DNA of 64,000 nt from Flammeovirga pectinis (GTDB taxonomy: Bacteria > Bacteroidota > Bacteroidia > Cytophagales > Flammeovirgaceae). Made by a program: the position numbers and the translations under genes. The notes below the pieces were generated by a model. The model made no database searches. It had not been told where the DNA came from and worked only from the letters and a program-made list of their open reading frames with translations. Positions 3,959 through 36,657 of the stretch are shown here, piece after piece. The DNA lies in assembly GCF_003970675.1 (NCBI RefSeq), contig NZ_CP034562.1, positions 4,004,001-4,068,000 on the forward strand, given 5' to 3'. Every line of letters starts with the position of its first letter. Position 1 is the first letter of the stretch.

Positions 3959-4215
3959 ATGAATGTCAATAAACTTGTTTAATCATTAAAAAATTTGGTT
4001 AATTTGTTTGTGTAGTTAAACTACCCGTTAGAAATGCTATTTAAAAATAGCATTAGCAGAGAGTGTTTTATAAAATACGTCTTTTGATATTACTCAAATT
4101 AGTAAAAATATGTTAACAGTAAGATATGTGTTACAGTTGTTAATCAATTAATGTTAAATTGAAAATTATACTTCTAACACAATAAATGCACATATTGAAG
4201 TGCAAAATTTATACG

Positions 4216-6078
4216 ATGTTGATTCGAACTATACTGATTACATTACTATTTATTCTTGGGGAAAACTTTCTTCAAGCACAACCAATTTTACTAGAGGATA
4301 AAGAAGAATTACTAATTTCTGCTCCAGATTTTACGCTAGTTGTAGATTCTCTAAATTCACTTTCTATAGATGATATAGTAACTAAAAGAAAGCTTTTTAA
4401 GAGACCAAATGTTCCAATGTTTGTTACCACAGATACTTCGGTTACATATTGGATAAAGATGTCTATAGATGCAACTACTTTACAAGAAAATTCTTGGGTT
4501 TTTGAAATCTTAGATAGTCATTTAAGTAGCGTAGAAGCCTATCTTGCTGAAGATCAAAATTATCCAACTAAAATAGTTTCAGCAGGGTATAATCATCACT
4601 TTGGAGATAGAGAATTTGAACATAAAAATATAACATTCCCATTACGGGTAGGAGATTCTACTAAAATAGCTACTGTTTATTTATGCTACAAGTCTGAATT
4701 TAATAATGTATTACTATTTAAAGTAAGTAAAATCACATCGTTCCTTTCATATGCCCTCAACGAATATTTGTCATTAGGACTTTTCTATGGAACAATTCTT
4801 TGTCTTTTATTAGTGAACTTCATTTTATTCTTAATTTTAAGAGAACGTTATCAAGTACTAATTATCTTCTATTTATTTTCTGTGATTTCAATGGGACTAT
4901 CAGAAGATAATTTAGCTTCTCAATATTTATGGGTTGAAAATCCAGTGAATAATTATCATTTGATGAAGTTTTCATCTGTGTTTTTCACTATCGCAATTAC
5001 ATTTTTATCCATCAATTTTTTAAAGATAAAGAAATACCATAGTACTTTATTTTATCTAATATGGGTAGTGACATTAGGTAATATCATCTACTTTTTAACA
5101 ATGAAAGGGTACAATTCACCAATGTGGAATTTGTATTTATTTGGTGTGCCGTTTGCCATAATTTTTTATGTCTTAGTACGAGCAATAAAAGCAAAAAGGA
5201 TAAAAACGTGGTACTTTTTTATTGGATATAGTACTCTATTATTGCAACTACTTGCACTCGTTTTAAAATCTCATAACCTATATATATTCAACAGTATTTT
5301 AACTGTATATTCTTTTAATGTAACACTATTAATAGTTGGTTTGCTTATTACAATGTCTCAATTTGATAAGTTTAAAAAATTGAAAGATGAGAAAGAAGCA
5401 ATTCAGATAAGAGAGATTACTACTTTAAAAGAACAAGAAAAAGTTATTGAGCAAAAGGTTGTTGAAAGAACACAGGAGGTAGAAGAACAAAAAGAAATTG
5501 TATTTTATAAGAATAAAGAGTTAGAAGAAGTAAATGATTTACTGTTGGCACATCAACAGCAAATTGCGTTAATGAACCAGCAATTAGAAAAAGAAAACCG
5601 CCAATTACATAATGATGTAGAAGAACTGGCAACGGCAAGAGTAATGCTTAAAGAGGTCTCTTTCGAAGAATTTGAAAATCTTTTTCCAGACGATAATAGT
5701 TGCTATGAATATTTAGAAAAGAAGAAATGGGAAAATGGATATTCTTGCAAAAAATGTAACAGTACAGAATATGCAAAAGGGCAAGGTGTACTTGGTAGAA
5801 GATGTAAAAAATGCAATTATAATGAGTCGGTAACTAGTGGTACAATATTTCATAGACTTCACTTTCCAATAGAAAAAGCATTCAGAATGTTATTTATTGT
5901 CTTTGCACATAATGGAGAAATTTCGACCTACAAATTATCGGAAGATTTAGACTTACGTCAGAATACTTGCTGGAAATTCAAAAAGAAAATTGATGATGCA
6001 ATGCAAGGAAAAGAAGCTTTAATTGATGATGGTAACGCTTGTGAAGTGAAAGGGTGGGATGACCTTATTCTAGGATAA
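4216..6078 (+). CDS. 7TM-DISM sensor fused to an IS1595-type transposase zinc ribbon
   Basis: The frame opens at an ATG at 4186, but the ATG at 4216 gives a clean signal peptide (MLIRTILITLLFILG, cleavage after FLQAQ) and is preferred. Numbering from 4186: residues ~40-175 are a 7TMR-DISMED2-like sensory domain, ~195-390 hold about seven membrane helices, ~395-485 form a coiled coil, and the end is a zinc ribbon with Cys521, Cys524, Cys540 and Cys543 followed by a helix-turn-helix-like segment (ISTYKLSEDLDLRQNTCWKFKKK). That last part matches the N-terminal DNA-binding region of IS1595-family transposases (Zn_Tnp_IS1595, PF12760); the DDE catalytic domain is absent. Normal 7TM-DISM proteins end in a kinase, cyclase or LytTR/HTH output, so the zinc ribbon is probably a recruited DNA-binding output. 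It stands alone, with long AT-rich flanks. Confidence 0.8.
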   Translation: MLIRTILITLLFILGENFLQAQPILLEDKEELLISAPDFTLVVDSLNSLSIDDIVTKRKLFKRPNVPMFVTTDTSVTYWIKMSIDATTLQENSWVFEILDSHLSSVEAYLAEDQNYPTKIVSAGYNHHFGDREFEHKNITFPLRVGDSTKIATVYLCYKSEFNNVLLFKVSKITSFLSYALNEYLSLGLFYGTILCLLLVNFILFLILRERYQVLIIFYLFSVISMGLSEDNLASQYLWVENPVNNYHLMKFSSVFFTIAITFLSINFLKIKKYHSTLFYLIWVVTLGNIIYFLTMKGYNSPMWNLYLFGVPFAIIFYVLVRAIKAKRIKTWYFFIGYSTLLLQLLALVLKSHNLYIFNSILTVYSFNVTLLIVGLLITMSQFDKFKKLKDEKEAIQIREITTLKEQEKVIEQKVVERTQEVEEQKEIVFYKNKELEEVNDLLLAHQQQIALMNQQLEKENRQLHNDVEELATARVMLKEVSFEEFENLFPDDNSCYEYLEKKKWENGYSCKKCNSTEYAKGQGVLGRRCKKCNYNESVTSGTIFHRLHFPIEKAFRMLFIVFAHNGEISTYKLSEDLDLRQNTCWKFKKKIDDAMQGKEALIDDGNACEVKGWDDLILG

Positions 6079-6257
6079 TTTACTTTTCAACTTTTAATAA
6101 GCGTTAAAATATACTTTTTTTAAGTGATTGATTAAACGGTTTTTTAATATATGATTATTGAATAGTTATTTGATCTTCAGTATTTAATATCATTTATTTT
6201 TAAGTGATTAGCAATTGATTTGTAGACTTATATAAAGTTGTATTATTACACTTAATG

Positions 6258-6339: not shown

Positions 6340-7242
6340 ATGAATAAGAATATAACTGTTGTCGGAAGTTCAAACACAGATATGGTTGTAAAAACTACTC
6401 GACTACCACAACCTGGCGAAACTATCTTAGGAGGAACTTTTAATCAATACCAAGGAGGAAAAGGAGCAAACCAAGCAGTAGCTGCAGCAAAGCTAAACGG
6501 CAATGTTACTTTTATAGCAAAAGTAGGTAAAGATAGTCTAGGGGCAGAAGCAATTAATAGCTATAAAAAAGTAGGTATCAATACAAATCAGATACTAAGA
6601 GAAGAGAACGCAGCAACAGGGGTCGCATTAATTACTGTAGATGAAAATGCAGAGAATAGTATCGTGGTATCGTCTGGAGCAAATGCTTTATTATCAGTAG
6701 AAGACATCTCCAATCAAGAAAAAATATTTGAAGCATCAGTAATCACTTTAGTGCAATTAGAAACACCAATTTCTACGGTTCATAAAGTTGTTGAATTGGC
6801 AAAAAGTAAACAAAATACGGTTGTTTTAAACCCCGCACCTGCACAAGAATTATCAGATGCTATTTTAAAAAATACAGATATTATTACACCCAACGAGACG
6901 GAGACACAACTATTAACTGGGGTAGAAATTAATGATATTCCATCTATGGAGAAGGCATCAGAAATATTACATAAAAAAGGAATTAATACTGTTGTGATCA
7001 CACTTGGTAAACAAGGTGCATATTTATCTAATTCAGAATATAAAGAAATTATTCCCGCTCCAATTGTTAAAGCTGTAGATACAACAGCAGCAGGAGATGT
7101 TTTTAATGGAGCATTGACAGTCGCTTTGGTAGAAGGAAAAAATATAAAACAAGCAATACAATTTGCAAGTAAGGCTGCTTCGATTGCTGTAACTAGAGAT
7201 GGTGCTCAAAATTCGGCACCAACAATAGACGAACTACTTTAA
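6340..7242 (+). CDS. rbsK: Ribokinase
   Basis: 300 residues, the normal length for a PfkB-family ribokinase, which makes D-ribose 5-phosphate from ribose and ATP in the cytoplasm. Seen in order: the N-terminal GSSNTDMV strand with the sugar-binding Asp, the GGKGANQA motif near residue 43, NPAPA and TPNETE in the middle, and the signature DTTAAGD at 247-253, whose last Asp is the catalytic base. It is the first gene of a three-gene unit (21 bp to the transporter, then 11 bp to a secreted glycohydrolase-like protein), which points to ribose or nucleoside salvage. Inverted repeats right before the start suggest regulated expression. Confidence 0.92.
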   Translation: MNKNITVVGSSNTDMVVKTTRLPQPGETILGGTFNQYQGGKGANQAVAAAKLNGNVTFIAKVGKDSLGAEAINSYKKVGINTNQILREENAATGVALITVDENAENSIVVSSGANALLSVEDISNQEKIFEASVITLVQLETPISTVHKVVELAKSKQNTVVLNPAPAQELSDAILKNTDIITPNETETQLLTGVEINDIPSMEKASEILHKKGINTVVITLGKQGAYLSNSEYKEIIPAPIVKAVDTTAAGDVFNGALTVALVEGKNIKQAIQFASKAASIAVTRDGAQNSAPTIDELL

Positions 7243-7263: not shown

Positions 7264-8262
7264 ATGTTTATAATAGAAAATTATTCTTTAGCTGTAGCTT
7301 TTTGCTTTATCACTATGCTCTGTTGGGGTTCTTGGACTAATACTCAGAAACTAGCAAGTCAGAAATGGAATTTCCAATTGTTTTATTGGGACTACTCAAT
7401 TGGTGTGGTACTTATCTCTGTAGTTTTGGCGTTAACAATGGGCTCTTTTGGAGAACATGGACGTGGATTTTTAGAAGATATGTCTCTTGCAGATACAAAC
7501 GCAATTACAAGTGCATTTATTGGAGGCGTCATTTTTAATATTGCAAATATACTATTAGTAATTGCTATAGATATTACAGGAATGGCAGTAGCTTTTCCAG
7601 TCGGTATAGGGTTAGCATTAGTGATTGGAGTAATAGATAATTATTTAAAAGATCCTTCTGCAGATCCATTTTTAATATTTACAGGTGTAGTGCTAATTGT
7701 ATTGGCAATTTTACTTAATGCGATCGCTTATAAACGCTTACCTAACCAGCAATCAGGGAGTAGTAAAGGGATAATTATTGCATTAATTGCTGGAATATCA
7801 ATGGGCTTCTTTTACGGTTTTGTTTCAGATGCAATGGCAACAAACCTAATTACTCCAGAGGTAGGGAAATTAACACCTTATTCTGCTGTAGTGATTTTTG
7901 CTTTAGGAATAGTACTTTCAAATTTTATTTTTAATACTATTAATATGTATAAGCCTCTATCTGGAGAGGCAGTTTCTTATACGGATTATATTCAAAAAGG
8001 AACACCAAAATTACATCTTATCGGTATTCTTGGAGGTGCAATTTGGGGAGTAGGAATGGCTTTTAACATTATCGCTTCAGAAGTAGCAAGTCCGGCAGTA
8101 TCTTATGGTTTAGGACAAGGTGCCACTATGATTGCAGCATTTTGGGGTGTTGTAATATGGAAAGAGTTTAAAGAGGCTCCAAAAGGAACAAATAAATTAT
8201 TAAACCTCATGTTTTTGCTATTTATAGTAGGACTTGGGTTGGTTGTATATTCAAAATTATAA
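7264..8262 (+). CDS. DMT-superfamily sugar/nucleoside-type permease
   Basis: 332 residues with about ten hydrophobic helices and almost no soluble part. The opening MLCWGSWTNTQKL segment, the GMAVAFPVGIGLALVIGV helix and the late IWGVGMAFNIIAS and AFWGVVIWKEF segments are typical of the GRP/RhaT/ureide-permease branch of the drug/metabolite transporter superfamily. Placed between a ribokinase and a secreted ADP-ribosylglycohydrolase-like protein, it most likely carries ribose or a nucleoside across the inner membrane. The substrate is inferred from the neighbours. Database entries for this branch are often labelled multidrug permease, which would be misleading here. Confidence 0.75.
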   Translation: MFIIENYSLAVAFCFITMLCWGSWTNTQKLASQKWNFQLFYWDYSIGVVLISVVLALTMGSFGEHGRGFLEDMSLADTNAITSAFIGGVIFNIANILLVIAIDITGMAVAFPVGIGLALVIGVIDNYLKDPSADPFLIFTGVVLIVLAILLNAIAYKRLPNQQSGSSKGIIIALIAGISMGFFYGFVSDAMATNLITPEVGKLTPYSAVVIFALGIVLSNFIFNTINMYKPLSGEAVSYTDYIQKGTPKLHLIGILGGAIWGVGMAFNIIASEVASPAVSYGLGQGATMIAAFWGVVIWKEFKEAPKGTNKLLNLMFLLFIVGLGLVVYSKL

Positions 8263-8273
8263 GACATAAATTA

Positions 8274-10220
8274 ATGAACAAATTTTACAAATATATCGGG
8301 GTATTACTTCTTAGTTTAACTGTAATAAGTTGTACAGAAAAGAAAGAGGAAGGAAATTATAAATTACTTTCGGTAGAAGAATATAACGATGCTGTTTATG
8401 CATCTTGGATTGGACAAATTATAGGGAATACTTATGGTTTAGGGTATGAGTTTAAATTTATAGACGAGCCAGGTCCAGATAAATTTCCTTACGGTTATGA
8501 TTTTACTTTAGAAGACCTTAAAAAACATGATGGTGCATATTCTGACGATGATACAGATATTGAATATATGTATCTAACACAAATGGAGAAGAATGGCATT
8601 GAACCAAGTTATAAAAATTTAGCCAATGCGTGGTCTACCCATGTAAAAGAGCGTGTTTGGTTTGCTAATAGAATGGCTGTAACATTAATTAATGCAGGTC
8701 ATTTCCCACCTGTATCTGGTTCAATTGGTTATAATACAGAATGGTTTCAGATAGATCCTCAATTGGTGAATGAAATTTGGGCAGTAACTTCTCCTGGAAT
8801 GATCAATTATGCTGTTGATAAATCAGAATTTTCTGCTAGAATAACAAACGATAGCTTTGGTGTTGACCCAACTTTACATTATGCAGCAATGTATAGTGCG
8901 GCCTTTTTCGAGAAAGATATTCATAAATTAATTGATATTGGAACACAAGCTCTTCCAAAAGACAGTCGTTTTAAAGCCATAGTTGAAAATGTAAAAAAAT
9001 GGCATTCAAAATACCCTAATGATTGGCAGAAAGCAAGAGCACTTGTAAAAGAGCATTACTATGTAGTAGAAGATTATAACAGACATTCTTGGGCTGTTGT
9101 AGATGCAAACTTAAATGGTGCTTATGGAATAATGGCTCTTTTATATGGTGAAGGAGATTTCCAAAAAACATTAGATTATAGTTGTGCTTTTGGAATGGAT
9201 GCGGACAATCAGGCAGCAACAATGTGTGGTTTATTGGGTATAGTGAATGGTTTTAAAAGCATACCTCATGATTTAATGTTTCCGGTAGAAGGTGCAAATT
9301 GGGAGTTACCTTTTAATGATCAATATAAAATGATAACAAGAGAGGGCTTGTCAGATGAAACGCTTACTAATCTTGCAAAAAGAACAACGGCACAAGGAGA
9401 GAGAATTATTAAAGCATATGGAGGTGAAGTGATTACAAAAGGAGGGAAGCAATATTATAAAATCAATACTGATGCAAAATTTGTCGCTCCTTTTGAATTA
9501 AATACTATTCCTAAAATGGCTATAGAAGTAAACAATCCTTTTAATTATCCTATCTATACTGGTGGTAATAAAGGAGATGTAAAAGTGAGAATTGATGGTG
9601 AATTACCGCAAGGAATCGCATTAACATCAACTGCTTTGGAAGGAACACCTACGGAAGTAGGAACGTATGCTTTTGATATAATTGCGGAATATAAAGATGA
9701 AGTAAAAACAATCAATGTAAAATTTGATGTTCATTCTAAAAATTTAGCTTCTACAGCAAAAGAAGTGGTTTATAATAAGAACTCAACAAATAAAAATATT
9801 GAATTAATTAGAAATGGCACAACTAAAGAGACCTACTATAGTACTAAAAAAGGTACTGCCAGAGAAGTAGACTTCTATGGTTATAAATGGGATAAACCAC
9901 AAACAATATCAGCTTTAATATATAATAACGGACAATCTGGAGAGTTTTGTGGTTGGTTTACTTCTTTTGAGGTAGAAATACTGAAAAATGGTAAATGGAT
10001 TAAACTAGAGGGAGAGGAAGTTTCGCCAAAAATGAACTTGGATAATTCGCAATGGTTAAAGCCTTGTTTTATGAATTACGAAATAACATTCAAACCTGTA
10101 ACTACTAAAGGAATTAGAATTGTTGGTCTTGGTGGTGGCATTGAGAAAGATGCAAATAATGCTCATTTAGGCATACAGTATTATACATCAATTAGCGAAT
10201 TGAGCGTATTTGAGAAATAG
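8274..10220 (+). CDS. Secreted ADP-ribosylglycohydrolase-family lipoprotein
   Basis: 648 residues with a lipoprotein signal (VISC, Cys20). Residues ~35-400 are an ADP-ribosylglycohydrolase (ARH) fold: the metal-binding acidic cluster DDDTDIE at 91-97 and a second GMDADNQA motif at 307-314, where classic ARH enzymes have GGDTDT. A putative-Ig (He_PIG-like) domain follows around 430-490 (LPQGIALTSTALEGTP), then a C-terminal discoidin-like beta-sandwich to 648. ARH enzymes cut N- or O-glycosidic bonds to ADP-ribose; here an export signal and the ribokinase/permease neighbours suggest it frees ribose from an external nucleoside or ADP-ribose compound. The exact substrate is not visible. The operon ends at the bidirectional terminator at 10285. 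Confidence 0.8.
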   Translation: MNKFYKYIGVLLLSLTVISCTEKKEEGNYKLLSVEEYNDAVYASWIGQIIGNTYGLGYEFKFIDEPGPDKFPYGYDFTLEDLKKHDGAYSDDDTDIEYMYLTQMEKNGIEPSYKNLANAWSTHVKERVWFANRMAVTLINAGHFPPVSGSIGYNTEWFQIDPQLVNEIWAVTSPGMINYAVDKSEFSARITNDSFGVDPTLHYAAMYSAAFFEKDIHKLIDIGTQALPKDSRFKAIVENVKKWHSKYPNDWQKARALVKEHYYVVEDYNRHSWAVVDANLNGAYGIMALLYGEGDFQKTLDYSCAFGMDADNQAATMCGLLGIVNGFKSIPHDLMFPVEGANWELPFNDQYKMITREGLSDETLTNLAKRTTAQGERIIKAYGGEVITKGGKQYYKINTDAKFVAPFELNTIPKMAIEVNNPFNYPIYTGGNKGDVKVRIDGELPQGIALTSTALEGTPTEVGTYAFDIIAEYKDEVKTINVKFDVHSKNLASTAKEVVYNKNSTNKNIELIRNGTTKETYYSTKKGTAREVDFYGYKWDKPQTISALIYNNGQSGEFCGWFTSFEVEILKNGKWIKLEGEEVSPKMNLDNSQWLKPCFMNYEITFKPVTTKGIRIVGLGGGIEKDANNAHLGIQYYTSISELSVFEK

Positions 10221-10280: not shown

Positions 10281-10724
10281 ATTAAAAAAGTCCAATTGAA
10301 TGAATATTCAATTGGACTTTTTTTGTCGGTCTGTCTTATTTCTTTATAAAAATTATTTTACAACAAGTGTTTTCGAGGCGACACCTTTGTTTGTTGAGAT
10401 TCTTAGAATATAAACGCCTTGGCTTAATCCTTTTACATCTATCAACGAGTTAAATGTTGAGCCTTTATTTACACCAGAAATAGTAAATAAATCAATTTTA
10501 GAGATAATAGTACCTGCTGAAACGGATACTTTTACAAAATCTGAAGAGGGGTTAGGGTAAACCAATAAGTCTGACGCCAAAGTTACATTATCTAAAGCTA
10601 AAGCCTCTTCAGTTTTTTCTACTAACATTTCGGCTTTAATCTCACGTGCTGTATATGGAGTACCATAAGATGTTTCTCCCGCTGGTGTAGAAATTGTCAA
10701 TTCTAATGTACCAGCCTCTTCAAA
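10281..10724. repeat. Near-identical 3' block, copy A
   Basis: This block matches 15821-16264 at a constant offset of 5540 bp. By eye the two differ by two substitutions (10378 and 10569) and by the terminator loop. Homology beyond 10724 drops sharply and then resumes, so the pattern looks like a conversion tract within an older gene duplication. Confidence 0.85.
10285..10322. terminator. Bidirectional terminator
   Basis: A perfect long stem starting AAAAAGTCCAATTGAA with a short central loop (TGAATA at 10301-10306), flanked by A and T tracts. It lies between the convergent ARH-family gene and the first giant repeat protein and can serve both. A near copy is at 15825-15862. Confidence 0.85.
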
Positions 10725-13700
10725 TGTAACTGTTAGTCCGTCTACAGTAGCAGCTCCTGAAGTTGTTAATGCTAAGCCTGGAGCAGTTGTTAGAATATTC
10801 ATTTCCATTGAAGGAGTTTCATTAATACTAACTGCTGAAGGTAAATCATAGGTAATCACTGGAGAATACATGTAATATTCTTTTTCATGTAAAATCCATT
10901 TTCCTAACTCATTATCCCATCTTTCATTATATGTTTCAATACCCCAACGTTGCTCTCTGATTCCTAACCAGTCTTCTAGCTCGGCATTCCAAGTATATTC
11001 CCAAGCATCGTTTTCAACGGTTTTTTTATAAGGAACAAATTCATTAATTTCAGAGTCATATTTATATATTGCAGTATATCCTTTATTCGGATTATAATAA
11101 TTAAATAGTCTTTCTTTTATATGATCTTTTATCCACTTGGAACCATTCCACTCTTCGTAAATGCTTAATGAAAATGAAATATCTCCAGAATAGTTATAAT
11201 CAATTACTGTATTTCTATATATATTTTCCCATTCATCATTACCACCTATAGCATACTCATGGACACTTTGCTCTTCTTTATTAATATAATGAGTGTTTTT
11301 GAAAATCTTACACCAATCACCGATATTAGCTGACCAATCATAGTATTCATATATATCAAGATCTCCGTTTGTGTTAATAATTTTATTATTATTAACCCAA
11401 GTATCAGTGATCCATTCTTCGTGAATCCTAGTAGAAACCTCTCCCTCGATAGTAAAGGTATATGCCTCTACATATTGCCATGTATTATCAGAGAATTTCC
11501 ATTCTGAATAAGCTGTTCTATCACCATCATAATCTCTTTTCCTATCACCTATCCATTCCTGTTGCTTATCACTCCAATTATACGATATTTCAGAAGTCTT
11601 CACTTGCTCATCATTATAAATAAATTCATTTTTATAATTAAGCGCCCAATCTAGATTATCATAATCCCAGACGAAGTGAACAGATGCTACTTTATTTCCA
11701 TTCGTTTTAGATTTATTTTCATAAGAATATCTTCCTTCCCAAACATTGTTACTGTAATCCCAGTAATACGTTGCATACTTTATATATGTATAGCCGTCTT
11801 TGTCTTCCCTCTCTTCATGATCATATCTATAATCTCCAATCCACATTTCTTGATCAGAACTCCAATGATAACTTGAATGCTCAATAGTTTGTCCATCATC
11901 ATTTTTTTTAAACTCACTTTTGAAATGCTTTTCAAATTCAGAACCATTAATTTCGTAAGAAATACTGGTGTAAACATCTTCATCCTCAGAATATGTCATA
12001 CTATACCTTTTTTCAGGAACAAAGATAGTTCCATCATGAGAATATTGAGTAATACCTGATTGAACTCCATCAGTAAACTCATACATATACTTTTCTAATT
12101 CAACCCAAACAGGATCATCAAAAGTATTTGTATTTGTATAATAAGTTCTACTTGTTAAAACACTAGCCGTAGAATCTTCAATAACTAAATTATTCTTGTT
12201 AGAATCTATTAAAGAATCATTACTTACTTTTAAATTATAAGTAATTCTAAAATAGTCTTGATTAAAGTGACGCTCAATTAAAGTTATTTCATTATTATAA
12301 GAATTTTGAAAATCAGTATATATAGATTTCAATTGAGTATTAAAATTACTTGATGCATAACAATATTTATATTCAGAGATTTTTTGACCCTTCGATGCAT
12401 CAAAAACTGTTTCAGTTTTTACAAAAGTATCAACATTATATCTTACCTCTTGTTGGTTATAAATGACCCAAGCATCATTTGTATAATTAAAATATGTATA
12501 ATCATAATCACGATCATTTAGGTAGTTCCAATTTCGTTTAGAACTCAATCTATATTTTGAAGTTTCTGATGACCAATAAGAATAAATTTCCTGACTTTGT
12601 CTTCCTTCAGAGTCATATAGGTAATTATTTCTAGATCTTTTCACCCAACTACCATCATTAAAATTATCATGAAGGGATTGAGTTTTTTGATTTAACTCAT
12701 TAAATAAATAATTAGATCTATAGCCATATGTATAATAATTAAGATCAGTATCCCATGAACTACGGTACGAATACATTGTTATATAATCATTGTCATCGAA
12801 AGCATATCTACTTTCCCAAGAATTCACCCAAGTATTTCCTAAATAATTTTGGTGTTTATTTAAAATTTGATTTCCATTATCGTCATAGTCATACTCATAT
12901 TTGTAATCTCCTACCCAATCTTGATCTTCACTAGACCAATCGTAATAAGCATCTAAAATTGTATAATTATCAACATTACCAATCACTTTACGAGCTCTTT
13001 CGTTCTTAGAGCCAGATACATAAGCACCAGACTTCCCGAAAAGATAAACTTCTAAAAGTTTAATTCCATTTTCATTATATTCAAATTCATGCTTATAACT
13101 TTCATATGATCCCCAATCGTCTGGGGCAACTCTTTCCTCTAAAGTCAATCTATCTTCATTATCATATTCTAAAACCTTAGTAGCAATAGCAGTTGTAGCC
13201 CAGTCAGAATCAGCACTTTCAAATTCTTCAATTTTAGTAAGTAAATCATTAGAATTGTATTCATACTTTTTCAACCAATGATTTACCCACGTAGTCCCTT
13301 CACCTTTGTAATCAGCTACTTCTACTTCATCACCATTTTCATTGTAAGTATACTCATGTTTCCAATCATTACCCCAATTATTATTTTCAGAGTCCCAATA
13401 AGATGTAGCATCAGAATTAAAATTATATCTATTAATATATGTATACTGAGTTGAATTTAGCCAATCATCTGTGTTTATATTCCATGTTTGATATGTTCTT
13501 ATTTCAGTGTCATTATTAGGGTATTCATAGTTATTTTGATAATGATATAACCAATTATTATCACCATCATTGTAAGCATAATTACTTAATAAAGTTCTGC
13601 CTTCTTCATCAAAAGAGTTTTCTTCTTTATAGCTTTTTAACCAGATTCCTTCTGAATAGAAGTATTGTGAATACATTATTCTATTATTATTTTCATCATA

Positions 13701-15581
13701 TGCAAGCTCTTCTTTACTATAAAGTATCCATTCATTATTCTCTGAGTGATAAGTAATTCCTTCTAGCAGTTGACTTTTATTATCAAATATAGATTCTGAT
13801 TTAGAATCTTTCATCCAAACATCTCCTTCTCCATAATATGATGCGAAAGATATCGAATTCCCTAAATCATCAAATGCATATTCATACTTGTAATTCTTAA
13901 CCCACTCACTCTTATTCGTATCATAATACTCAGATATTGAAAGTATTTGCATTCCATTTAAATGTGCAGAAGTTTGGCGGTAGTCAGGAATAAACTCATT
14001 TAAGTCTTCACTCCAATAATATCTAACTGAAGTTTCAGCGGAACCATCAGGGAAGTAAGTATATTCATATTTATGATCTGCGACGAAGTTCATATCATCG
14101 ACAGACCAATCATAAGAAACTCTTGATGAAACTTGAACATTTTCATTAAATGTTTCTTCTACTTTATATTCACCTTCCCATTCTTGTGATGGTTTATTCC
14201 ATCTAAATCTCTCTTCAAGTATACGGTTCTCATTTTCATCATACGCATAAATATTCTTGTAAGAATTCACTAAACTTTCTTCTACTCTTGAATAAGATTT
14301 CTCCAGAGACGTTAAATGATTTCCATTATCATCATTTATATATTCAAATGAGTTAGAAACTGCCCATCCGTGTACATGATTATGCCACTCAAAAGACATA
14401 TAACTATCAACATGTCCATTTTCATCGTATGTATAAGTCCGACCATTTTGACCTATCCAAGTCTGTAATACTTTATTAAAAGTATATTCATAATAAAAAT
14501 CTAGTCTGATTACATTATCATCAGATGTATAAAGTTTAAGCTCGCTTTTAGAATTAGGTTCTAATTCCTGAGAGTTTTTATTATAACTATAGTATTCATA
14601 TTCATATTCAATATCAGAGGACCACGTGTATCTAGTGATAGAAATCGTTGTTAGAACTCCATTTATATTTTCTTTCGTTTCAATTTCTGCTAAAAAACCA
14701 TTTTCATCTCTAAGGTAATTACGTTCTAAGAATACTTTTAATTCTCCATTACCATTTTTTCTGTACTCAATATGCTGAACATTTTCACCTAGCTCATTAA
14801 AAGTAGTATAGATTTTTCGTGTTAGTACTGAGTCGTTGTCAGCAATATGTTCATACCAAACCGTAGAGTCTAATTGTAAAATGATTGCATCTTCTTCCAG
14901 AGTTCTTGAACCACTTTTCCCAATAAATTCTTTATCTGTTAGAGGGATATTAATACTTTTCGTTAAAGAATCTAATCCTAATCCAAAAGCTTTATTACTT
15001 TTCTCTATAGTATTTTTAGACAGTAGAGAAGGGATTTTTTCTGCTACCCAATCATTTCTATGTTTTAATAACAATCCTCTTTTAGTTTGAGGAGCAAAAT
15101 CAATAAATGATTGAACTAAATGAGTGGGCATGTCTCTTTCTGAAAAAGAAACTGTTTGTTCTTCTTTTGTATTTAAACCTTTAAGACTAAATCTACCTTT
15201 AGAAAGGTTTATTGTATCTGTCTTAAATTTAAGTTGAGATGGAACAAATACTCCACGCTTTAGCTCCTTTTTTTCAGGGATTACAGCAAAAGGGTTTTCT
15301 TGTAACTCCTTTTCAACTTGCAATTTGATTCTATCTTCTTTTGACAAAAGATCAAGTTGCAAAGTATGTTTTTTAGCACTTTCAACAACCTTTGAATACT
15401 CAAGAGCATGTTTTTCTTTTAAAAGTCTATTTTCTCTTTCTTCTAAAAGTATTTCTTGTTCATGCTTTTCGCTAAGAAGCTGTTCTTCAGACTTTTTAAA
15501 ATCTTGTGGCGATATTTGTTGAGCATAGGAAAATGTAGATATAAGAATTATACCTATTGAGAGTAATTGTTTTAAGTTCAT
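10353..15581 (-). CDS. Giant T9SS-exported Trp/Tyr-repeat surface protein, copy 1
   Basis: An upstream in-frame ATG at 15617 exists, but starting at 15581 gives a standard signal peptide (MNLKQLLSIGIILIST, cleavage after YAQQ) that matches the paralogue, so about 1742 residues are assigned. After the signal comes a charged coiled coil (EEQLLSEKHEQEILLEE), a unique N-terminal region, then roughly 1200 residues of imperfect ~40-residue repeats built on Trp, Tyr-x-Tyr and YDENGN/FDDNGN turns. They recall YD/RHS-type repeats but no RHS core or toxin end was found. The end has an Ig-like region and a T9SS type A sorting domain (VYPNPSSDFVKV ... GVYILRISTNKG). Probably a surface fibre or adhesin. 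Closely related to the next gene. Confidence 0.75.
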   Translation of the reverse strand: MNLKQLLSIGIILISTFSYAQQISPQDFKKSEEQLLSEKHEQEILLEERENRLLKEKHALEYSKVVESAKKHTLQLDLLSKEDRIKLQVEKELQENPFAVIPEKKELKRGVFVPSQLKFKTDTINLSKGRFSLKGLNTKEEQTVSFSERDMPTHLVQSFIDFAPQTKRGLLLKHRNDWVAEKIPSLLSKNTIEKSNKAFGLGLDSLTKSINIPLTDKEFIGKSGSRTLEEDAIILQLDSTVWYEHIADNDSVLTRKIYTTFNELGENVQHIEYRKNGNGELKVFLERNYLRDENGFLAEIETKENINGVLTTISITRYTWSSDIEYEYEYYSYNKNSQELEPNSKSELKLYTSDDNVIRLDFYYEYTFNKVLQTWIGQNGRTYTYDENGHVDSYMSFEWHNHVHGWAVSNSFEYINDDNGNHLTSLEKSYSRVEESLVNSYKNIYAYDENENRILEERFRWNKPSQEWEGEYKVEETFNENVQVSSRVSYDWSVDDMNFVADHKYEYTYFPDGSAETSVRYYWSEDLNEFIPDYRQTSAHLNGMQILSISEYYDTNKSEWVKNYKYEYAFDDLGNSISFASYYGEGDVWMKDSKSESIFDNKSQLLEGITYHSENNEWILYSKEELAYDENNNRIMYSQYFYSEGIWLKSYKEENSFDEEGRTLLSNYAYNDGDNNWLYHYQNNYEYPNNDTEIRTYQTWNINTDDWLNSTQYTYINRYNFNSDATSYWDSENNNWGNDWKHEYTYNENGDEVEVADYKGEGTTWVNHWLKKYEYNSNDLLTKIEEFESADSDWATTAIATKVLEYDNEDRLTLEERVAPDDWGSYESYKHEFEYNENGIKLLEVYLFGKSGAYVSGSKNERARKVIGNVDNYTILDAYYDWSSEDQDWVGDYKYEYDYDDNGNQILNKHQNYLGNTWVNSWESRYAFDDNDYITMYSYRSSWDTDLNYYTYGYRSNYLFNELNQKTQSLHDNFNDGSWVKRSRNNYLYDSEGRQSQEIYSYWSSETSKYRLSSKRNWNYLNDRDYDYTYFNYTNDAWVIYNQQEVRYNVDTFVKTETVFDASKGQKISEYKYCYASSNFNTQLKSIYTDFQNSYNNEITLIERHFNQDYFRITYNLKVSNDSLIDSNKNNLVIEDSTASVLTSRTYYTNTNTFDDPVWVELEKYMYEFTDGVQSGITQYSHDGTIFVPEKRYSMTYSEDEDVYTSISYEINGSEFEKHFKSEFKKNDDGQTIEHSSYHWSSDQEMWIGDYRYDHEEREDKDGYTYIKYATYYWDYSNNVWEGRYSYENKSKTNGNKVASVHFVWDYDNLDWALNYKNEFIYNDEQVKTSEISYNWSDKQQEWIGDRKRDYDGDRTAYSEWKFSDNTWQYVEAYTFTIEGEVSTRIHEEWITDTWVNNNKIINTNGDLDIYEYYDWSANIGDWCKIFKNTHYINKEEQSVHEYAIGGNDEWENIYRNTVIDYNYSGDISFSLSIYEEWNGSKWIKDHIKERLFNYYNPNKGYTAIYKYDSEINEFVPYKKTVENDAWEYTWNAELEDWLGIREQRWGIETYNERWDNELGKWILHEKEYYMYSPVITYDLPSAVSINETPSMEMNILTTAPGLALTTSGAATVDGLTVTFEEAGTLELTISTPAGETSYGTPYTAREIKAEMLVEKTEEALALDNVTLASDLLVYPNPSSDFVKVSVSAGTIISKIDLFTISGVNKGSTFNSLIDVKGLSQGVYILRISTNKGVASKTLVVK

Positions 15582-15892
15582 TTTTAAAAATTGAAAGAGT
15601 AAAAGTTGTTTCACCACTCTGATAAATTACTTTTCGTAATCTTAGAGTGATATAAATTAGTCTGTTAATAATAATTGAAATCAGAATATCAAAAATACAT
15701 CTATAGTTTAATCATTGCAATTTATCTTCTTTGTTTTTTATTAAATATTTTCAAACAGACCTTATTAAGGATTCGATTTTTTTGAAGAGTAATATTTAAA
15801 TAGTCCATATTCATTAGAATATTAAAAAAGTCCAATTGAATATTCATTCAATTGGACTTTTTTTGTCGGTCTGTCTTATTTCTTTATAAAAA
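15582..15892. other. Intergenic region between the two giant genes
   Basis: About 310 bp, AT-rich. It should hold the promoter of copy 1 (reading leftward) and contains the terminator of copy 2 at 15825-15862. No further gene or peptide was recognised. Confidence 0.6.
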
Positions 15893-23555: not shown

Positions 23556-26500
23556 TTATAATTTAGCTTTTACACTAAACCCAAATGTTCTTGTTGTCGG
23601 GGTAGAGCCAGACTCATAGCCTTGAACATTACCAGATCTAAGTGTGATTTCTGGATCGAAATAAGGGAAGTTTTTATGAAGAATTGCTAAATTTCTACCG
23701 TAAACACCCAGTGTAATCGCATTAAATGGACCTTTTGTAATAAGATTAGATGGGAGAGTATAGGTGATACTAACATCTCTTAATTTTATCCAAGAGGCAT
23801 CATAAATATAGACAGCATCTGGGTTTTGATTATAGTTAAATGCAGATCCACTACCTGATACATCATTAGGTACAAATACATCATTTGGAGATCCATCTTC
23901 TTTTACACCTTCTAATAATAATCCACCTCCGTCTGCAAGAGAACTTCTAGACGGGTTTCCTTTAGAATTTAATCCTGCTGTTTCTTCATATAAACCCGTA
24001 GATAACCCGTATCTATATGATTGTGAGAATATTTCACCTCCAATTGACATATCAATAAGTGCACTTAATCGAATCCCTTTATAAGATACAGAAGTAGAAA
24101 CTCCACCAGTCCAATCTGGTTGCATATTACCAATTATTTCATCAGAAGTTGTAGCACCTTCAGCATCAGAGGCGTACATATAGAAGCCCTCATCGTCTAC
24201 CATTTTGCCACCATTTTCATGATATTTAAAATTTGTTCCTTTTATTGCTCCATAAGGCTGACCAACTGCTGCAGTAACAGATGCTGTACCTGTAAGCTCT
24301 CCTAAAACAAGGTTTTCTACACCATTAGATAAAGAAGTGACTTCAGAAATGTTTTTGCCAAAATTAAAGCCTACGTTCCATTCTAATCCATAAGAAGTAC
24401 GAACAGGAGTTGTGTTAAGAGAAATTTCCATTCCTTTATTTCTTACATCTCCCGCATTTTGATATTGTGAAGTATAACCTGTAGCACCTGTTGTTTGTAC
24501 ACCTAAGATTTGGTTTCTTGTAGTACGATCATAGAAAGTAAGGTCAAGACCAATTCTTCTCTGGAAGAACATTACCTCAAGACCAAGCTCTAATTCGTTT
24601 GTCAACTCAGGTTTTAATTCTGGGTTATATAATGTAGATCCTACAGAAGAACTACTCTTACTGTATTTGGGAACATCGCCAAATTTACCAACAGAATTAT
24701 AATAGTTTGTAGTGTTATAAGGTGATGTATCGTTACCAACTTGTGCATATCCAAACCTAACCTTACCAAAAGATATTACATCACTATTTTTTAAAGAATT
24801 AAGTTCTGTAAAAATAAAAGATGTAGATACAGCAGGGTAGAAGAATGAATTTTCTGATGGTGGAAGTGTAGACGACCAGTCATTTCTTGCAGAAATATCT
24901 AAATACACCATATCTTTCCAACCTAAAGATGCATTTGCATAAACACTTTGTACTTGTCTACTCGATACCACTTCATTAATAACATATTCTGGTGATACGG
25001 AGTTACTTAGTGCATATAAATCTTTTACAACTAAACCACCTCTTGTCGCATTATACAATGAATAGCTATTTTGTGTTCTTACATTACCACCAATCATAGC
25101 CGTTAAAGAAAGGTTATTAGCAAAACGTTTATTGAAATTTGTTCTAATATCAAAGTTAGTCTCTTTACCATTCTTCTTATAAATGTTATATTCTGGAGTA
25201 TCTGTTCCACCAACAGCAATTCTTTCTTCTTGCTCTAAAGTATATGTATCAATTGCTCCAATACCTGTTATAGACCACCAGTCTGTTAATTTGTAATTCA
25301 AATTAAAATTACCATACAAGCGATCTCTAGAATCGTTCTGGTAATTTTTAAACCTAACCCAATAAGGATTATCAAAAAAGGCAGGTTTACCATCTTCAAT
25401 ACTTCTTCTATTCCAAGTATTCTGATTTCCAGCAGCATCTACATAACTTCTTTTTAATCTATCAAAATCTAAGTTAGTTTGGAACCATTGGTTAAAAGAT
25501 TGTCCAACATTTCTAGGATCATACCCTGTGCCATTTCTACCAAGACCTTCTACGGTAATATAAGATCCAGAAAATGATACTTCAAACTTATCTGATAGTT
25601 TATGAGAAGCCGTAAAATTGATATTATTCCTGTTAAGGTTAGAATTAGGAAGAACACCTTTAATGTCTTTGTAGGTATACCCTAATCTAAAATTAGATGT
25701 TTCCGTACCACCATCTAAACCAATATTATAAGTTTGTGTAACACCTGTTTCATAAAAGTGTTCAGGTCCTTTTTCTGAAGCAACATAAGGTCTAGTTTTT
25801 CCATATTCGGCCGTATTTGATGGGTCAAAACTATCCCAATGTCTTACTTGTAAATTGGGATCAAACTTAGGACCAAAAGATGCATCATCAGAAAAGTTTA
25901 CCGTAGGGTTCCCATTTTCATCTGTTTCGGTAAAACCACCGCCAATACCACCATAACCTGCACCATATTCTTTTTGATATTTTGGCATAGTCGCAGTATT
26001 AATTTTATCAAAAGATACGTTTGCACCCACTGTAACACCTATTCCTTTCTTTTTAGTACCTTTCTTTGTAGTAATCATTATTACACCATTTGCACCCCTA
26101 GAACCATAAAGGGCAGTAGCTGTTGCACCTTTTAAAACAGAAATTGTCTCGATACTATTAGGGTCAATATCTTGTGATAGGTCTCCATAATCGTAACCAC
26201 CGCCACCAGTACTTTGGCCACTTTCATTGCTGTTAGAATTAGAAATAGGCACTCCGTCTACAACGTATAACGGTTGATTACTAGACCCAATTGTTGAGTA
26301 ACCTCTAATTATTACATTAGAAGAACCACCCATATTCCCAGAGTTTCTTACTTGTAATCCAGATACCCTTCCAGACAAAGAATTTGTAATATTCTCTCCA
26401 GCTGTCTCAGAAAACTGATCACTTTGTATTTTCTGAACAGAATAACCTAAAGACTTTTCATCTCTTGTAATCCCTAAGGCCGTTACAACTACCTCATCCA

Positions 26501-26801
26501 GTTGTTCAATGTCTTCTTCTAAGTTTACGTCAATTTTATTACTACTTCCAATTTTTATTTCTTTTGATTTGTATCCAATAAGTGTATAAATCAATGTCGC
26601 ATCTGCTTCTTTAATTATTAATTGATAATGACCATCAATATCAGTTACACTACCTTGTGATGTCCCTTTTATTATTACAGCAACCCCAGGCAGAGGTGCA
26701 TTAGTTTCGTCAAGAATTGTTCCTGATATAGTTCTTTCTTGTGCCGTTACAAAATGTTGTAAACCAAAAACAAGCAAGACTAGTACTACTAGTTTTCTCA
26801 T
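23556..26801 (-). CDS. SusC/RagA-like TonB-dependent receptor
   Basis: 1081 residues. Signal peptide ending VTAQE, then a carboxypeptidase-regulatory-like domain (ISGTILDETNAPLPGVAVIIKGTS style, residues ~24-100), the TonB-linked plug with VDGVPISNSNS and the SVLKGATATALYGSRGANGVIMITTKKG signature, and a long beta-barrel ending in an aromatic strand (TFGFSVKAKL). Imports a large substrate through the outer membrane using TonB energy, with the SusD gene that follows. It is divergent from the alpha/beta-hydrolase at 27390, so the two may share a control region. Confidence 0.93.
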   Translation of the reverse strand: MRKLVVLVLLVFGLQHFVTAQERTISGTILDETNAPLPGVAVIIKGTSQGSVTDIDGHYQLIIKEADATLIYTLIGYKSKEIKIGSSNKIDVNLEEDIEQLDEVVVTALGITRDEKSLGYSVQKIQSDQFSETAGENITNSLSGRVSGLQVRNSGNMGGSSNVIIRGYSTIGSSNQPLYVVDGVPISNSNSNESGQSTGGGGYDYGDLSQDIDPNSIETISVLKGATATALYGSRGANGVIMITTKKGTKKKGIGVTVGANVSFDKINTATMPKYQKEYGAGYGGIGGGFTETDENGNPTVNFSDDASFGPKFDPNLQVRHWDSFDPSNTAEYGKTRPYVASEKGPEHFYETGVTQTYNIGLDGGTETSNFRLGYTYKDIKGVLPNSNLNRNNINFTASHKLSDKFEVSFSGSYITVEGLGRNGTGYDPRNVGQSFNQWFQTNLDFDRLKRSYVDAAGNQNTWNRRSIEDGKPAFFDNPYWVRFKNYQNDSRDRLYGNFNLNYKLTDWWSITGIGAIDTYTLEQEERIAVGGTDTPEYNIYKKNGKETNFDIRTNFNKRFANNLSLTAMIGGNVRTQNSYSLYNATRGGLVVKDLYALSNSVSPEYVINEVVSSRQVQSVYANASLGWKDMVYLDISARNDWSSTLPPSENSFFYPAVSTSFIFTELNSLKNSDVISFGKVRFGYAQVGNDTSPYNTTNYYNSVGKFGDVPKYSKSSSSVGSTLYNPELKPELTNELELGLEVMFFQRRIGLDLTFYDRTTRNQILGVQTTGATGYTSQYQNAGDVRNKGMEISLNTTPVRTSYGLEWNVGFNFGKNISEVTSLSNGVENLVLGELTGTASVTAAVGQPYGAIKGTNFKYHENGGKMVDDEGFYMYASDAEGATTSDEIIGNMQPDWTGGVSTSVSYKGIRLSALIDMSIGGEIFSQSYRYGLSTGLYEETAGLNSKGNPSRSSLADGGGLLLEGVKEDGSPNDVFVPNDVSGSGSAFNYNQNPDAVYIYDASWIKLRDVSITYTLPSNLITKGPFNAITLGVYGRNLAILHKNFPYFDPEITLRSGNVQGYESGSTPTTRTFGFSVKAKL

Positions 26802-27389
26802 GATTTTAATAGATGATATTAGTTTGAAAAGTAGGTTGATAGCATGCTAGTTATGCATGCCTTTTAAATAATTGATTTAAAAAAATAATTTAGTAGATGA
26901 ATATAATGTATTACATATTTATTTAGTATGTGATGATTTGAGATTTAGTTTTAATTGATCAATAAAAATTAATAGCTATTTAATTATTTAACGTATTCAA
27001 AATTAGTTTTTTATAATTGATAATTGCAAGTTTTAAACTTTTTGATTCAATTGAAAAAAATGACTTAGATAAGAATAATACAAGAAAAAGAATAGTCAAT
27101 ATCGAATCATAAAAGTATAGTACAATTTTTTGAACAACTGATAACAAAACTTAATAGCCGTATTTTAACATTACAGAAGTGTTAAATACACATTTATATG
27201 TCGTTTTGGAATTTTTTTTAGGAATAAGAATTGATTATTAAGACTACTATAGTTTCAAAATTGAGAATTTATGTAAAACATTTCCCCCTTTACTTCCCCA
27301 ATAAATAAAGTATAGTATCTTTATAAATCAAGTGCTGTATATGAGGTGCCAAATTAGTACCTTTTAGATCTTCTCAAATTTTTATATCC
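26802..27389. other. Divergent intergenic region, 588 bp
   Basis: Very AT-rich spacer between the SusC gene (minus) and the hydrolase gene (plus). Two GCATGC hexamers 7 bp apart near 26841-26860 are the only compact repeat noticed; no clear TAnnTTTG promoter could be placed and no gene is visible. Confidence 0.45.
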
Positions 27390-33493: not shown

Positions 33494-36400
33494 ATGTTAG
33501 GATTAATACTGAAATGGCAAAAGCAGCTATTTATTTTTTTAGTAATGATACTTATAAACACTTCAGTCTTTGCACAAGTTCAAGTATCAGGTCTAGTAAC
33601 CTCTCAGTCCGATGAATTTCCGATACCAGGAGTTACAATTCTAGTAAAAGGCACAACTGTTGGAACAGTAACAAACTTTGATGGTAAATATACTATTACA
33701 TGTGAACCAAATGATATACTTATCTTCAGGTATATTAGCATGGAAGAGCAATTCATTGAAGTTGAAAACCAAACAACAATTAACGTTGCAATGGTAGACA
33801 AATTAGAACACCTTGATGAGGTTGTTGTAGTTGGTTACGGTACGCAACGTAAATCTCACGTTACGGGTGCAATATCTAAAGTAAAAAATGAAAAACTCGA
33901 TCAGTTACCTGTATCTCGTGTAGATGAAGCCTTAATAGGACAAGTTTCTGGTGTGAATATTCAAATGACGAACCCACAAGCAGGTTCTTCTCCAACAATT
34001 CAGGTACGTGGTGTAGGTTCTATCGGAGCTGCTGCATCTCCTGCAGTAGTTGTAGATGGAGTTCTTGTAGATTCTGATTATCTAGCTTCTTTAGATATGA
34101 ATGATGTAGAATCTATTGAAGTATTAAAGGATGCTTCTTCTGCAGCAATCTTTGGATCTAGAGGTGGTAATGGTGTAATCATGATTACTACTAAATCTGG
34201 AGAGCCAGGAGAAACTAAATTTAGCTTTAATAGCTATTATGGTCGTAAATGGGCTTTAACTAGAGATAATTTCCGCCCAACTGTTGCAGAAACAAAGGCA
34301 ACGGCAGAAGCATACAGAGCAGAAATTGAACAAAATTTCCCAGATTATGCAGATGATGAGCAATTAAACTACATCTACAACAAGGCGAACACAACTATTA
34401 CAAGGTTGGATCACATGCAAAGAATTACTCCCGGAGAAGAAACAGATTGGCAAGATATTATCTTCCAAGAAGGGAATATTCAATCTTATTCATTAAGTGC
34501 TAACGGTGGATCTGAAAATACTAATTATCATATCTCTGGAGCTTACTTAAAAGACGATGGTGTTCTACTTGCAGATTCTTATTCTAAAATGAATTTACGC
34601 TTTAAATTAAAAACAAAGCTATCTAAAAGATTAGAATTAGGAGTAAACTTTAATCCTACAAGAGAACAGAAGCAGGTTTTCCCTACTTCAGTTCATGAGT
34701 CGCTTCGTCAATCATCTTGGTTACCAATTAAGCATGATGATCATACAATACAATTTGTAGATAGAGGAAACTTCCCAGACGTAGCAGTTGGAGATTACGC
34801 ACAAGAATCTCACTTCAACAACTATCCAGACCCTAATGATCCTACTAAAACATTGCCGAACTTGAGTGTTACAAATAACTCAAACCCATATGCAAATATT
34901 GTAGAGAGAGATCATAAAGAGCTTACACATAGAATATATGCAAGTGCATATGTAAAATATAAAATGGCTAAGGGTTTAAATTTCCGTTCGTCGCTTGTTA
35001 CAAACTACCGTAATAGAGCTCGTAATTATTACGATGGTACTAAAGCAACTAGAAATGGAGCATCTGATGCACGTTTAAGAACAAGAACATATAATGACTT
35101 TGCATGGATAAATGATAACTACTTTACATACAATAAAACCTTTAATGGTAGACATGAGATCAATGCTACTTTAGGTATGTCATTTGAACAAAGAAACTAT
35201 AATTTCACAGAAACAATCGGTACAGGTTTTACAAACGATGCCGTTCAAACAATGAATGCAGCTTCGACTATAGCTTACGGAGATGAATCTAGAGCAGTAG
35301 AAACATTACATTCTATTTTTGCTCGTGTGAATTATGCTTTTGATGACAAATATTTATTCTCACTTTCTATGCGTACAGATGGTAGCTCTAAATTTGGATC
35401 TAACTATAAGTACGGAGTTTTCCCTGCTGCATCTTTTGGATGGAGAATTACAGAAGAAAGCTTTATGGATAATGTAAATTGGATCTCTGTTTTAAAACCG
35501 AGAATATCGTATGGTATTACGGGTAATAATTCAGGAATCGGATATTATGAAGCATTAGAAAGAATGTCTCCATCTGGAGCAGTAGTAGGAGGTAGTATAT
35601 CTTCTGGTTATATACCGTCTAATATTGCTCAACCAGATCTACGTTGGGAGCAACAAGTAGAACTTAACCCTGGTATTGATTATGGCTTTTTTGGAAATAG
35701 AGTTTTCGGTTCTGTAGAATGGTACCGTCGTACTTCATCAAATTTATTGTTGAGCCAACAAATTCCATCAATTACAGGATTTGACCAACGTACAATTAAC
35801 TTAGGTCAGGTGCAAAATGAAGGTTTCGAATTCGAAATGAGCGTGAAACCAATTGTAGCATCAAAATTCATCTGGACAGTTACAGCGAATGCATCAACTA
35901 ACGAAAACAAATTAATTGATTTTGGTGGTGTAGATAGCTTAATAACTACTGTAGATTCTAAAAGACCAGCTAACTGGATTGCTGTAGAAGGGCAACCTAT
36001 TTCATCTTTCTATGGTTACCAAATAGATCGTTCTAAAGGCGATAATGGTAAAGTTCCTTTTGAGTATTTAAACGAAGGTTTCTGGCCAATTGGTGGTAAA
36101 TCTCAAATGGGTTATGTGAAAGATTTAAACGAAGATGGTGTAATTGATGATAAGGACCGTACTATTTTAGGTTCGCCGTATCCTACATTTATCTGGTCTA
36201 TAACCAACTCATTCCAAGTAGGTCCATTTGATCTTATGTTTATGTTCCAAGGTTCTATGGGTGGAAAAACGCTTAATATTGACCCTCAATATTATGAGTA
36301 CCAAACAATGCAAGGACAACGTCCTAATACTCAATTCTTTGATGATATGAGTTTAGTAAAAGAAAGAATTTTAACGGATGATGTTGTTCAGGATGCTTCT

Positions 36401-36643
36401 TTTATTGCACTTAGAAGCTTAAATATGGGCTTTACATTACCTGAGCGTTGGATAACTAAAATTGGTTTAAATAAAACTCGTCTGTATTGTTCTGGAACAA
36501 ACTTACTTTACATTATGGCAGATGATTATACTTCTTTCAACCCAGAAGGGATAAGAGATGAAGGACCAATTAACTACGGTTATCAAAGAGGAGCTGCTCC
36601 AATTCCTCGTTCATTTATTATTGGTATTAACGCTGAATTTTAA
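33494..36643 (+). CDS. SusC-like TonB-dependent receptor (alginate oligomer import)
   Basis: 1049 residues. Signal peptide ending SVFAQ, a carboxypeptidase-regulatory-like domain (VSGLVTSQSDEFPIPGVTILVKG start), the DEVVVVGYGTQ TonB-box-like motif, the plug with VDGVLVDSDY and VLKDASSAAIFGSRGGNGVIMITTKSG, then the barrel ending IPRSFIIGINAEF. It is 14 bp from the SusD gene and 588 bp downstream of the regulator. Location in the locus with a PL7 lyase, KdgF and DEH reductase supports uptake of alginate oligosaccharides. Family call is certain; substrate is by context. Confidence 0.93.
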   Translation: MLGLILKWQKQLFIFLVMILINTSVFAQVQVSGLVTSQSDEFPIPGVTILVKGTTVGTVTNFDGKYTITCEPNDILIFRYISMEEQFIEVENQTTINVAMVDKLEHLDEVVVVGYGTQRKSHVTGAISKVKNEKLDQLPVSRVDEALIGQVSGVNIQMTNPQAGSSPTIQVRGVGSIGAAASPAVVVDGVLVDSDYLASLDMNDVESIEVLKDASSAAIFGSRGGNGVIMITTKSGEPGETKFSFNSYYGRKWALTRDNFRPTVAETKATAEAYRAEIEQNFPDYADDEQLNYIYNKANTTITRLDHMQRITPGEETDWQDIIFQEGNIQSYSLSANGGSENTNYHISGAYLKDDGVLLADSYSKMNLRFKLKTKLSKRLELGVNFNPTREQKQVFPTSVHESLRQSSWLPIKHDDHTIQFVDRGNFPDVAVGDYAQESHFNNYPDPNDPTKTLPNLSVTNNSNPYANIVERDHKELTHRIYASAYVKYKMAKGLNFRSSLVTNYRNRARNYYDGTKATRNGASDARLRTRTYNDFAWINDNYFTYNKTFNGRHEINATLGMSFEQRNYNFTETIGTGFTNDAVQTMNAASTIAYGDESRAVETLHSIFARVNYAFDDKYLFSLSMRTDGSSKFGSNYKYGVFPAASFGWRITEESFMDNVNWISVLKPRISYGITGNNSGIGYYEALERMSPSGAVVGGSISSGYIPSNIAQPDLRWEQQVELNPGIDYGFFGNRVFGSVEWYRRTSSNLLLSQQIPSITGFDQRTINLGQVQNEGFEFEMSVKPIVASKFIWTVTANASTNENKLIDFGGVDSLITTVDSKRPANWIAVEGQPISSFYGYQIDRSKGDNGKVPFEYLNEGFWPIGGKSQMGYVKDLNEDGVIDDKDRTILGSPYPTFIWSITNSFQVGPFDLMFMFQGSMGGKTLNIDPQYYEYQTMQGQRPNTQFFDDMSLVKERILTDDVVQDASFIALRSLNMGFTLPERWITKIGLNKTRLYCSGTNLLYIMADDYTSFNPEGIRDEGPINYGYQRGAAPIPRSFIIGINAEF

Positions 36644-36657
36644 TCATCACTATTGAA

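Follow-up and report, generated by a model that had tools for sequence, protein, structure and literature searches.

A seven-helix membrane receptor of Flammeovirga pectinis with a transposase-related zinc ribbon: a probable regulator of sugar or glycan use

Introduction

Can a membrane receptor use the DNA-binding part of a transposase as its own signalling output? A single gene in the 64,000-nucleotide stretch of Flammeovirga pectinis DNA analysed here (the window) raises this question. The initial annotation described a 7TM-DISM receptor joined to the four-cysteine ribbon and helix-turn-helix (HTH)-like part of IS1595 transposases without their catalytic domain, and proposed a new kind of one-component signalling protein with a captured transposon-derived DNA-binding end. 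A fusion unique to this genome, with an unconserved ribbon, would instead have implied a chance insertion.

Results

Domain composition of the receptor

The receptor gene (4216..6078, + strand) encodes 620 aa. Another possible ATG lies upstream at 4186; the 4216 start is the better choice, with the signal peptide beginning at this position, and the ten residues between the two starts are divergent among orthologs. The signal peptide spans approximately residues 1-21 (4216..4278, +; hydropathy peak at residues 1-19, sequence ..ENFLQAQ). It is followed by a 7TMR-DISMED2 periplasmic sensor domain at residues 38-167 (4327..4716, +; Pfam PF07696, 6.5e-18, 65.4 bits against a cut-off of 22) and a 7TMR-DISM_7TM seven-helix domain at residues 183-380 (4762..5355, +; PF07695, 1.1e-18, 68.4 bits against a cut-off of 29). 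Hydropathy analysis resolved the signal peptide and seven helices at residues 189-379. Because of the cleaved signal peptide and the seven helices, the C-terminal end is inferred to be cytoplasmic. A coiled coil with a heptad pattern occupies approximately residues 384-480 of this end (5365..5655, +). Analysis of residues 385-482 gave 61% hydrophobic residues at a and d positions in the best register, and the coiled coil was 97% identical between species orthologs.

The coiled coil leads into an IS1595-type zinc ribbon at residues 491-535 (5686..5820, +), which contains Cys 511, 514, 530 and 533 and matched PF12760 (Zn_ribbon_IS1595) at 28.4 bits, above the cut-off of 25.4. Collinear with the ribbon and after it, residues 549-599 (5860..6012, +) correspond to the HTH part of the IS1595 transposase N-terminal region, as judged by NF033547 (NCBIfam IS1595 transposase), an AlphaFold2 model and HTH structural neighbours. 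Only N-terminal positions 3-54 of NF033547 were matched, at 25.5 bits, which is under the cut-off of 75. Neither Pfam nor NCBIfam detected a DDE catalytic domain (PF12762) in the receptor, and the reading frame stops approximately 20 aa past the HTH. The protein ends in a GW..LI tail (6049..6072, +) that is common to receptor-type modules and was not seen in the stand-alone zinc-ribbon/HTH proteins described below; Trp 614 in this tail was found in 87% of sequences having residues there. No histidine kinase, receiver or AraC HTH was found in the receptor with Pfam. The coordinates, domain order and missing catalytic domain of the initial annotation were all correct, and its observation is confirmed.

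AlphaFold2 prediction of the ribbon and HTH module, with 28 natural relatives as input, gave a confident model (pLDDT 83.5) in which the ribbon forms a short beta hairpin and helices come after it. Structural neighbours of the module were mostly HTH DNA-binding proteins (Lrp/AsnC, homeodomain, KorA, MarR) or zinc ribbons. All of these matches were weak and partial (best Foldseek E 0.8, best VIA Z 5.1), and sequence searches returned no convincing solved relative.

Conservation and origin of the module

The F. pectinis genome contains three full-length paralogs including the window copy, the other two being approximately 45% identical overall and 60% in the module. Within Cytophagales, a module profile had matches in 118 of 291 genomes and in 50 of 116 genera; the matching ORFs were mostly 600-780 aa long. 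The module was rare outside this order: a phylum-wide scan at E 1e-20 detected it in 19 of 394 genomes, several of which belong to Cytophagales itself, and several matches were transposases. When 62 sampled module proteins were examined, 54 carried the 7TM domain, 51 carried DISMED2 and 2 carried a Reg_prop/Y_Y_Y sensor, while a DDE domain was present only in a transposase. The four ribbon cysteines, together with a K and a W, were invariant across the 62 aligned proteins, and several HTH positions ranked among the most conserved of the module. The Flammeovirga kamogawensis ortholog (NZ_CP076130) was 86% identical to the receptor. Module dN/dS between the two species was 0.01-0.07, about as low as that of the sensor or lower. 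A similarity search with the whole receptor returned only stand-alone modules.

The module shares the collinear zinc ribbon and HTH of IS1595/ISXO2 transposases (PF12760 plus PF12762, NF033547), with 27-36% identity to IS1595 transposases on plasmids, other phyla included. It differs from them in lacking DDE, in being C-terminal rather than N-terminal, in its GW..LI tail and in being neither repetitive nor mobile: no near-identical copies were found, the paralogs are well diverged and orthologs lie in conserved gene order. In genome G004, approximately 20 near-identical ISXO2-like transposase copies with the same N-terminal module were seen on contigs L069, L071 and L174, mostly at contig ends; the left end of this element is GGTATCTAAACTTAGATCGCCC.

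A module tree resolved transposases (19 plus two unclassified rows; support 98), stand-alone proteins (33; support 92) and receptor-type modules (72; support 94), with receptors and stand-alones together opposite the transposases (support 98). The tree was built on 141 columns with sampling from one profile, its inner forks are unsure and its root is not fixed; one domestication would be the simplest reading but is not proven. The transposase capture proposed initially is upheld as far as homology goes, but the origin is old and not recent, because the receptor modules group in a clade of their own next to the stand-alones, and neither group falls with the transposases.

The same data address the possibility that the module is a chance insertion or a decaying IS1595 transposase remnant at the end of a 7TM-DISM gene. 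In its favour, a sister species does harbor some 20 near-identical IS1595/ISXO2-type copies with the same N-terminal module. Conservation nevertheless refutes this origin: the fusion recurs in dozens of genera with four invariant cysteines, the module is under strong constraint by its dN/dS, and the modules are a clade apart from transposases. We regard a chance event as practically eliminated, and the outcome that would have refuted the initial annotation was not met.

The stand-alone zinc-ribbon/HTH proteins (L005-L036, e.g. L007:5998-6426) are 133-145 aa long and come from Bacteroidales MAGs. They are approximately 32-44% identical to the module and have the same four cysteines and HTH, but differ from the receptor in having no membrane part, in their divergent pairing with a thioredoxin gene (32 of 33 loci) and in forming a separate clade. 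Several additional cysteines are conserved in them, and they are a possible redox regulator family.

Genes adjoining the receptors

Three presumed target genes follow the receptor: a ribokinase (6340..7242, +; TIGR02152, 364.7 bits), a ureide-permease/RhaT-GlcU-like sugar transporter (7264..8262, +) and an ADP-ribosylglycohydrolase-family protein with a lipoprotein-like N-terminus (8274..10220, +; PF03747, 1.5e-27). Linkage between the receptor and this three-gene operon was kept in F. kamogawensis, though the upstream genes differ. Next to these genes, on the opposite strand (10353-15617), is a 1754-aa secreted-looking protein with many W/Y-rich repeats and a C-terminal sorting-like tail.

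The window copy precedes a ribokinase operon and not susC/susD. Across the family, 55 distinct loci had sufficient flanking sequence, and at 22 of them SusC was the next same-strand gene, at distances of 196-773 bp; the SusC and SusD assignments were confirmed by domain matches. These 22 loci represent 10 genera and 4 families, and all but one (a Reg_prop type) of the receptors are of the 7TM type. With 30 SusD genes in the F. pectinis genome, a position before such a pair is expected by chance for approximately 0.6% of genes; the binomial statistic is only indicative, since orthologous loci are not independent. No SusC was found near the other five 7TM-DISM genes of this genome, which lack the module. 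Other receptors precede sulfatases (5 loci), GH2, GH18, GH3 (2 loci) or an esterase. In a separate receptor clade (L061, L062, L073, L075, L076), a sulfatase gene follows the receptor at a distance of 0-180 bp, a hint that these receptors control the use of sulfated algal polysaccharides. Receptors of family f16, with up to 13 module copies per genome, showed no clear common target next door, and P2 orthologs in four Flammeovirga species had neither an adjoining SusC nor repeats of the kind described below. A SusC/SusD pair (33494-38019) and another SusC-like gene (23559-26846) elsewhere in the window were also without the repeat pair.

Candidate operators

Phylogenetic footprinting was applied to the gap between receptor and SusC in five Flammeovirga species and to that between receptor and ribokinase in two; both gaps contained the same two direct repeats, TTTTTAARTGATW, always exactly 80 bp apart. 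In the window, candidate operator site 1 (TTTTTAAGTGATT; 6117..6129, +) is preceded by a GTTAAAAT element (6103..6110, +) and followed exactly 80 bp later by candidate site 2 (TTTTTAAGTGATT; 6197..6209, +). These were the only two exact copies of the TTTTTAARTGATW 13-mer in the window, against 0.21 expected. Each of the three F. pectinis paralogs adjoins a repeat pair whose 80-bp layout is identical or almost so, and their targets are different; the pair of paralog 3, at GH81, was found by eye and its first repeat is less regular.

Exact TTTTTAARTGATW pairs with a gap of 52-82 occurred nine times in nine Flammeovirga genomes, compared to none for a reversed control, and spacing was 80 in eight of the nine. 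Seven of these eight lay between a receptor and its downstream target. As these seven had defined the pattern, they are circular as a test. The eighth, in G003, was new and was located before a GH81 endo-beta-1,3-glucanase gene. When up to 3 mismatches were allowed, pairs were seen before GH81 in G004, G008 and, beside the ortholog of paralog 3, F. kamogawensis, and before a GH2/GH72-like gene in two Flammeovirga species. Matches with 3 mismatches were about as frequent as in the reversed control and were not interpreted. GTTAAA, which was outside the search pattern and has a chance of approximately 0.6% at each site, was present just upstream of repeat 1 at every new site.

In a second genus (G016), TTTTTAAGTG repeats were found 81 bp apart before SusC, the sole such pair in that genome. 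Genus g20 (family f13) had its own diverged footprint with conserved blocks approximately 76 bp apart; a block downstream of them resembles TTG / TAnnTTTG, the Bacteroidetes promoter consensus. Most other families (f19, f23) showed no recognisable TTTTTAARTGATW-type operator.

Several other candidates were rejected. Ahead of the receptor gene, at 4033-4054, lies a perfect palindrome of 10+10 bp (AATGCTATTT-AA-AAATAGCATT), which was not taken as an operator because it is missing from the F. kamogawensis alignment. The T-runs of the repeats do not represent a terminator of the receptor gene, as the paralog 3 repeats lie upstream of a divergent GH81 gene and other pairs adjoin no receptor at their loci. 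A repeat pair at G000:C2:188673 has a spacing of 67 and is probably due to chance. An IS end as the ancestral operator was rejected for lack of resemblance to the repeats.

The repeats and neighbours also bear on the idea that the receptor controls transposons, sensing transposition conditions while its module still recognises IS ends. Although the module is homologous to the DNA-binding part of a transposase, the left end of the related element is unlike the repeats, and the neighbours are sugar genes rather than IS elements. We give this idea very little credence.

Evidence for and against a DNA-binding output

A more serious alternative is that the module has lost DNA binding and serves as a cytoplasmic protein-protein or redox/zinc-sensing domain, with another regulator reading the repeats. 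The weak similarity to solved HTH proteins is compatible with this, as are the stand-alone relatives, whose link to thioredoxin and extra conserved cysteines hint at redox chemistry. Against it, several positions in the HTH rank with the most conserved of the module, all three paralogs adjoin a similar 80-bp repeat pair despite their different targets, and the module takes the place of the usual HTH on Reg_prop/Y_Y_Y sensors. Loss of DNA binding is unlikely on balance, although it cannot be dismissed.

Taking the observed domain make-up, conservation, selection, gene linkage and spaced repeats together, we hold with good confidence that the receptor regulates transcription for sugar or glycan use as a membrane-bound one-component protein, DNA binding and ligand being inferred. 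Gene neighbours and candidate operators lend independent support to the one-component reading put forward initially. In the proposed mechanism, the periplasmic DISMED2 domain would sense a small sugar or oligosaccharide, and the seven-helix domain and coiled coil would relay the signal to a dimer of cytoplasmic zinc-ribbon/HTH modules, for which dimerisation and zinc binding are presumed. The modules are demonstrably homologous to the DNA-binding part of IS1595-type transposases, and their descent from such an enzyme is inferred. The dimer is predicted to bind the two TTTTTAARTGATW direct repeats 80 bp apart, with GTTAAA before the first, upstream of the target promoter, and binding would most likely activate rather than repress it. 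The window copy most likely controls the adjoining ribokinase, sugar transporter and ADP-ribosylglycohydrolase genes, and the paralogs would control an adjoining SusC/SusD pair and a GH81 endo-beta-1,3-glucanase.

Comparison with known systems

The arrangement recalls SusR. SusR-like regulators have predicted direct-repeat operators with centres 67 or 77 bp apart, and the DNA-binding end of SusR resembled no known one (Ravcheev et al. 2013, PMC3878776). The receptor is similar to the SusR family (NF058541) in its membrane anchoring, periplasmic sensor and cytoplasmic DNA-binding end (inferred for the receptor), in the position of the gene just upstream of susC in many module-family cases, and in long-spaced direct repeats, here 76-81 bp apart. 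These similarities (spacings of 80, 81 and 76 bp) could indicate a SusR-family member with a previously unrecognised DNA-binding end. For comparison, loci with close SusD relatives were fetched, two of which contain SusR; these two bona fide SusR proteins beside sus genes matched NF058541 at 534 and 585 bits. They consist of a TPR sensor, a single internal TM, DUF6377 and a LuxR-like HTH without a zinc ribbon, whereas the receptor combines DISMED2, 7TM and the IS1595 zinc ribbon/HTH. The window protein had no match to NF058541 or DUF6377 at E up to 1, the module profile did not match SusR, and BLASTP of the receptor against SusR gave nothing significant. Membership is refuted at the sequence level and in our judgement highly improbable: as far as sequence comparison can tell, the receptor resembles SusR in operation and is not a family member.

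Among 7TMR-DISM receptors, the protein is typical in both Pfam domains, which scored well above cut-off, and in its coiled coil to an intracellular output. The outputs of the other five 7TM-DISM proteins of the genome are SpoIIE phosphatase (3), LuxR/GerE HTH (1) and histidine kinase (1). We found no description of a transposase-type zinc ribbon as a 7TMR-DISM output in the open-access literature. The output domain and the family look new. The suggestion of a wholly new kind of protein has to be tempered, because SusR is already a membrane-bound one-component regulator and the same genome has a 7TM-DISM protein with a LuxR/GerE output.

We also favour, with less assurance, the broader proposal that these receptors represent an undescribed class of regulators for glycan utilisation, widespread and found mainly in Cytophagales. 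In this class, a domesticated transposase zinc-ribbon/HTH would be an exchangeable output of 7TM-DISM and Reg_prop/Y_Y_Y sensors and would bind direct repeats spaced by approximately 80 bp, converging on the SusR operator layout. Such a class would stand beside SusR, hybrid two-component systems and ECF sigma/anti-sigma pairs in Cytophagales polysaccharide utilisation. It points to domestication of the DNA-reading half of a transposase as a signalling output for many bacterial receptors, which would be a clear example in prokaryotes of a transcription factor evolving from a transposon; it also offers concrete operator sequences and target genes for testing. If true, it poses the mechanistic question of how two DNA-binding heads that are both held at the membrane can reach sites separated by 80 bp. 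SusR, an unrelated protein, seems to have the same arrangement.

The module's presence on a second sensor chassis (Reg_prop plus Y_Y_Y) is as expected for an exchangeable output. This chassis is shared with hybrid two-component systems and other Reg_prop/Y_Y_Y sensors and bears the module in two proteins; module-bearing proteins differ from hybrid two-component systems in having no histidine kinase, receiver or AraC HTH. In the two proteins (L072:2506-5709 and L134:639-3629) the module forms the end instead of a histidine kinase or LuxR HTH, and the former is followed by SusC.

A diverged module was also seen in a 236-aa protein of F. pectinis with one TM helix and a coiled coil (G000:C1:948151-948522; L068:3107-3817). 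By eye, its gene adjoins those for a SpoIIE-type phosphatase and a nitrate-type ABC transporter.
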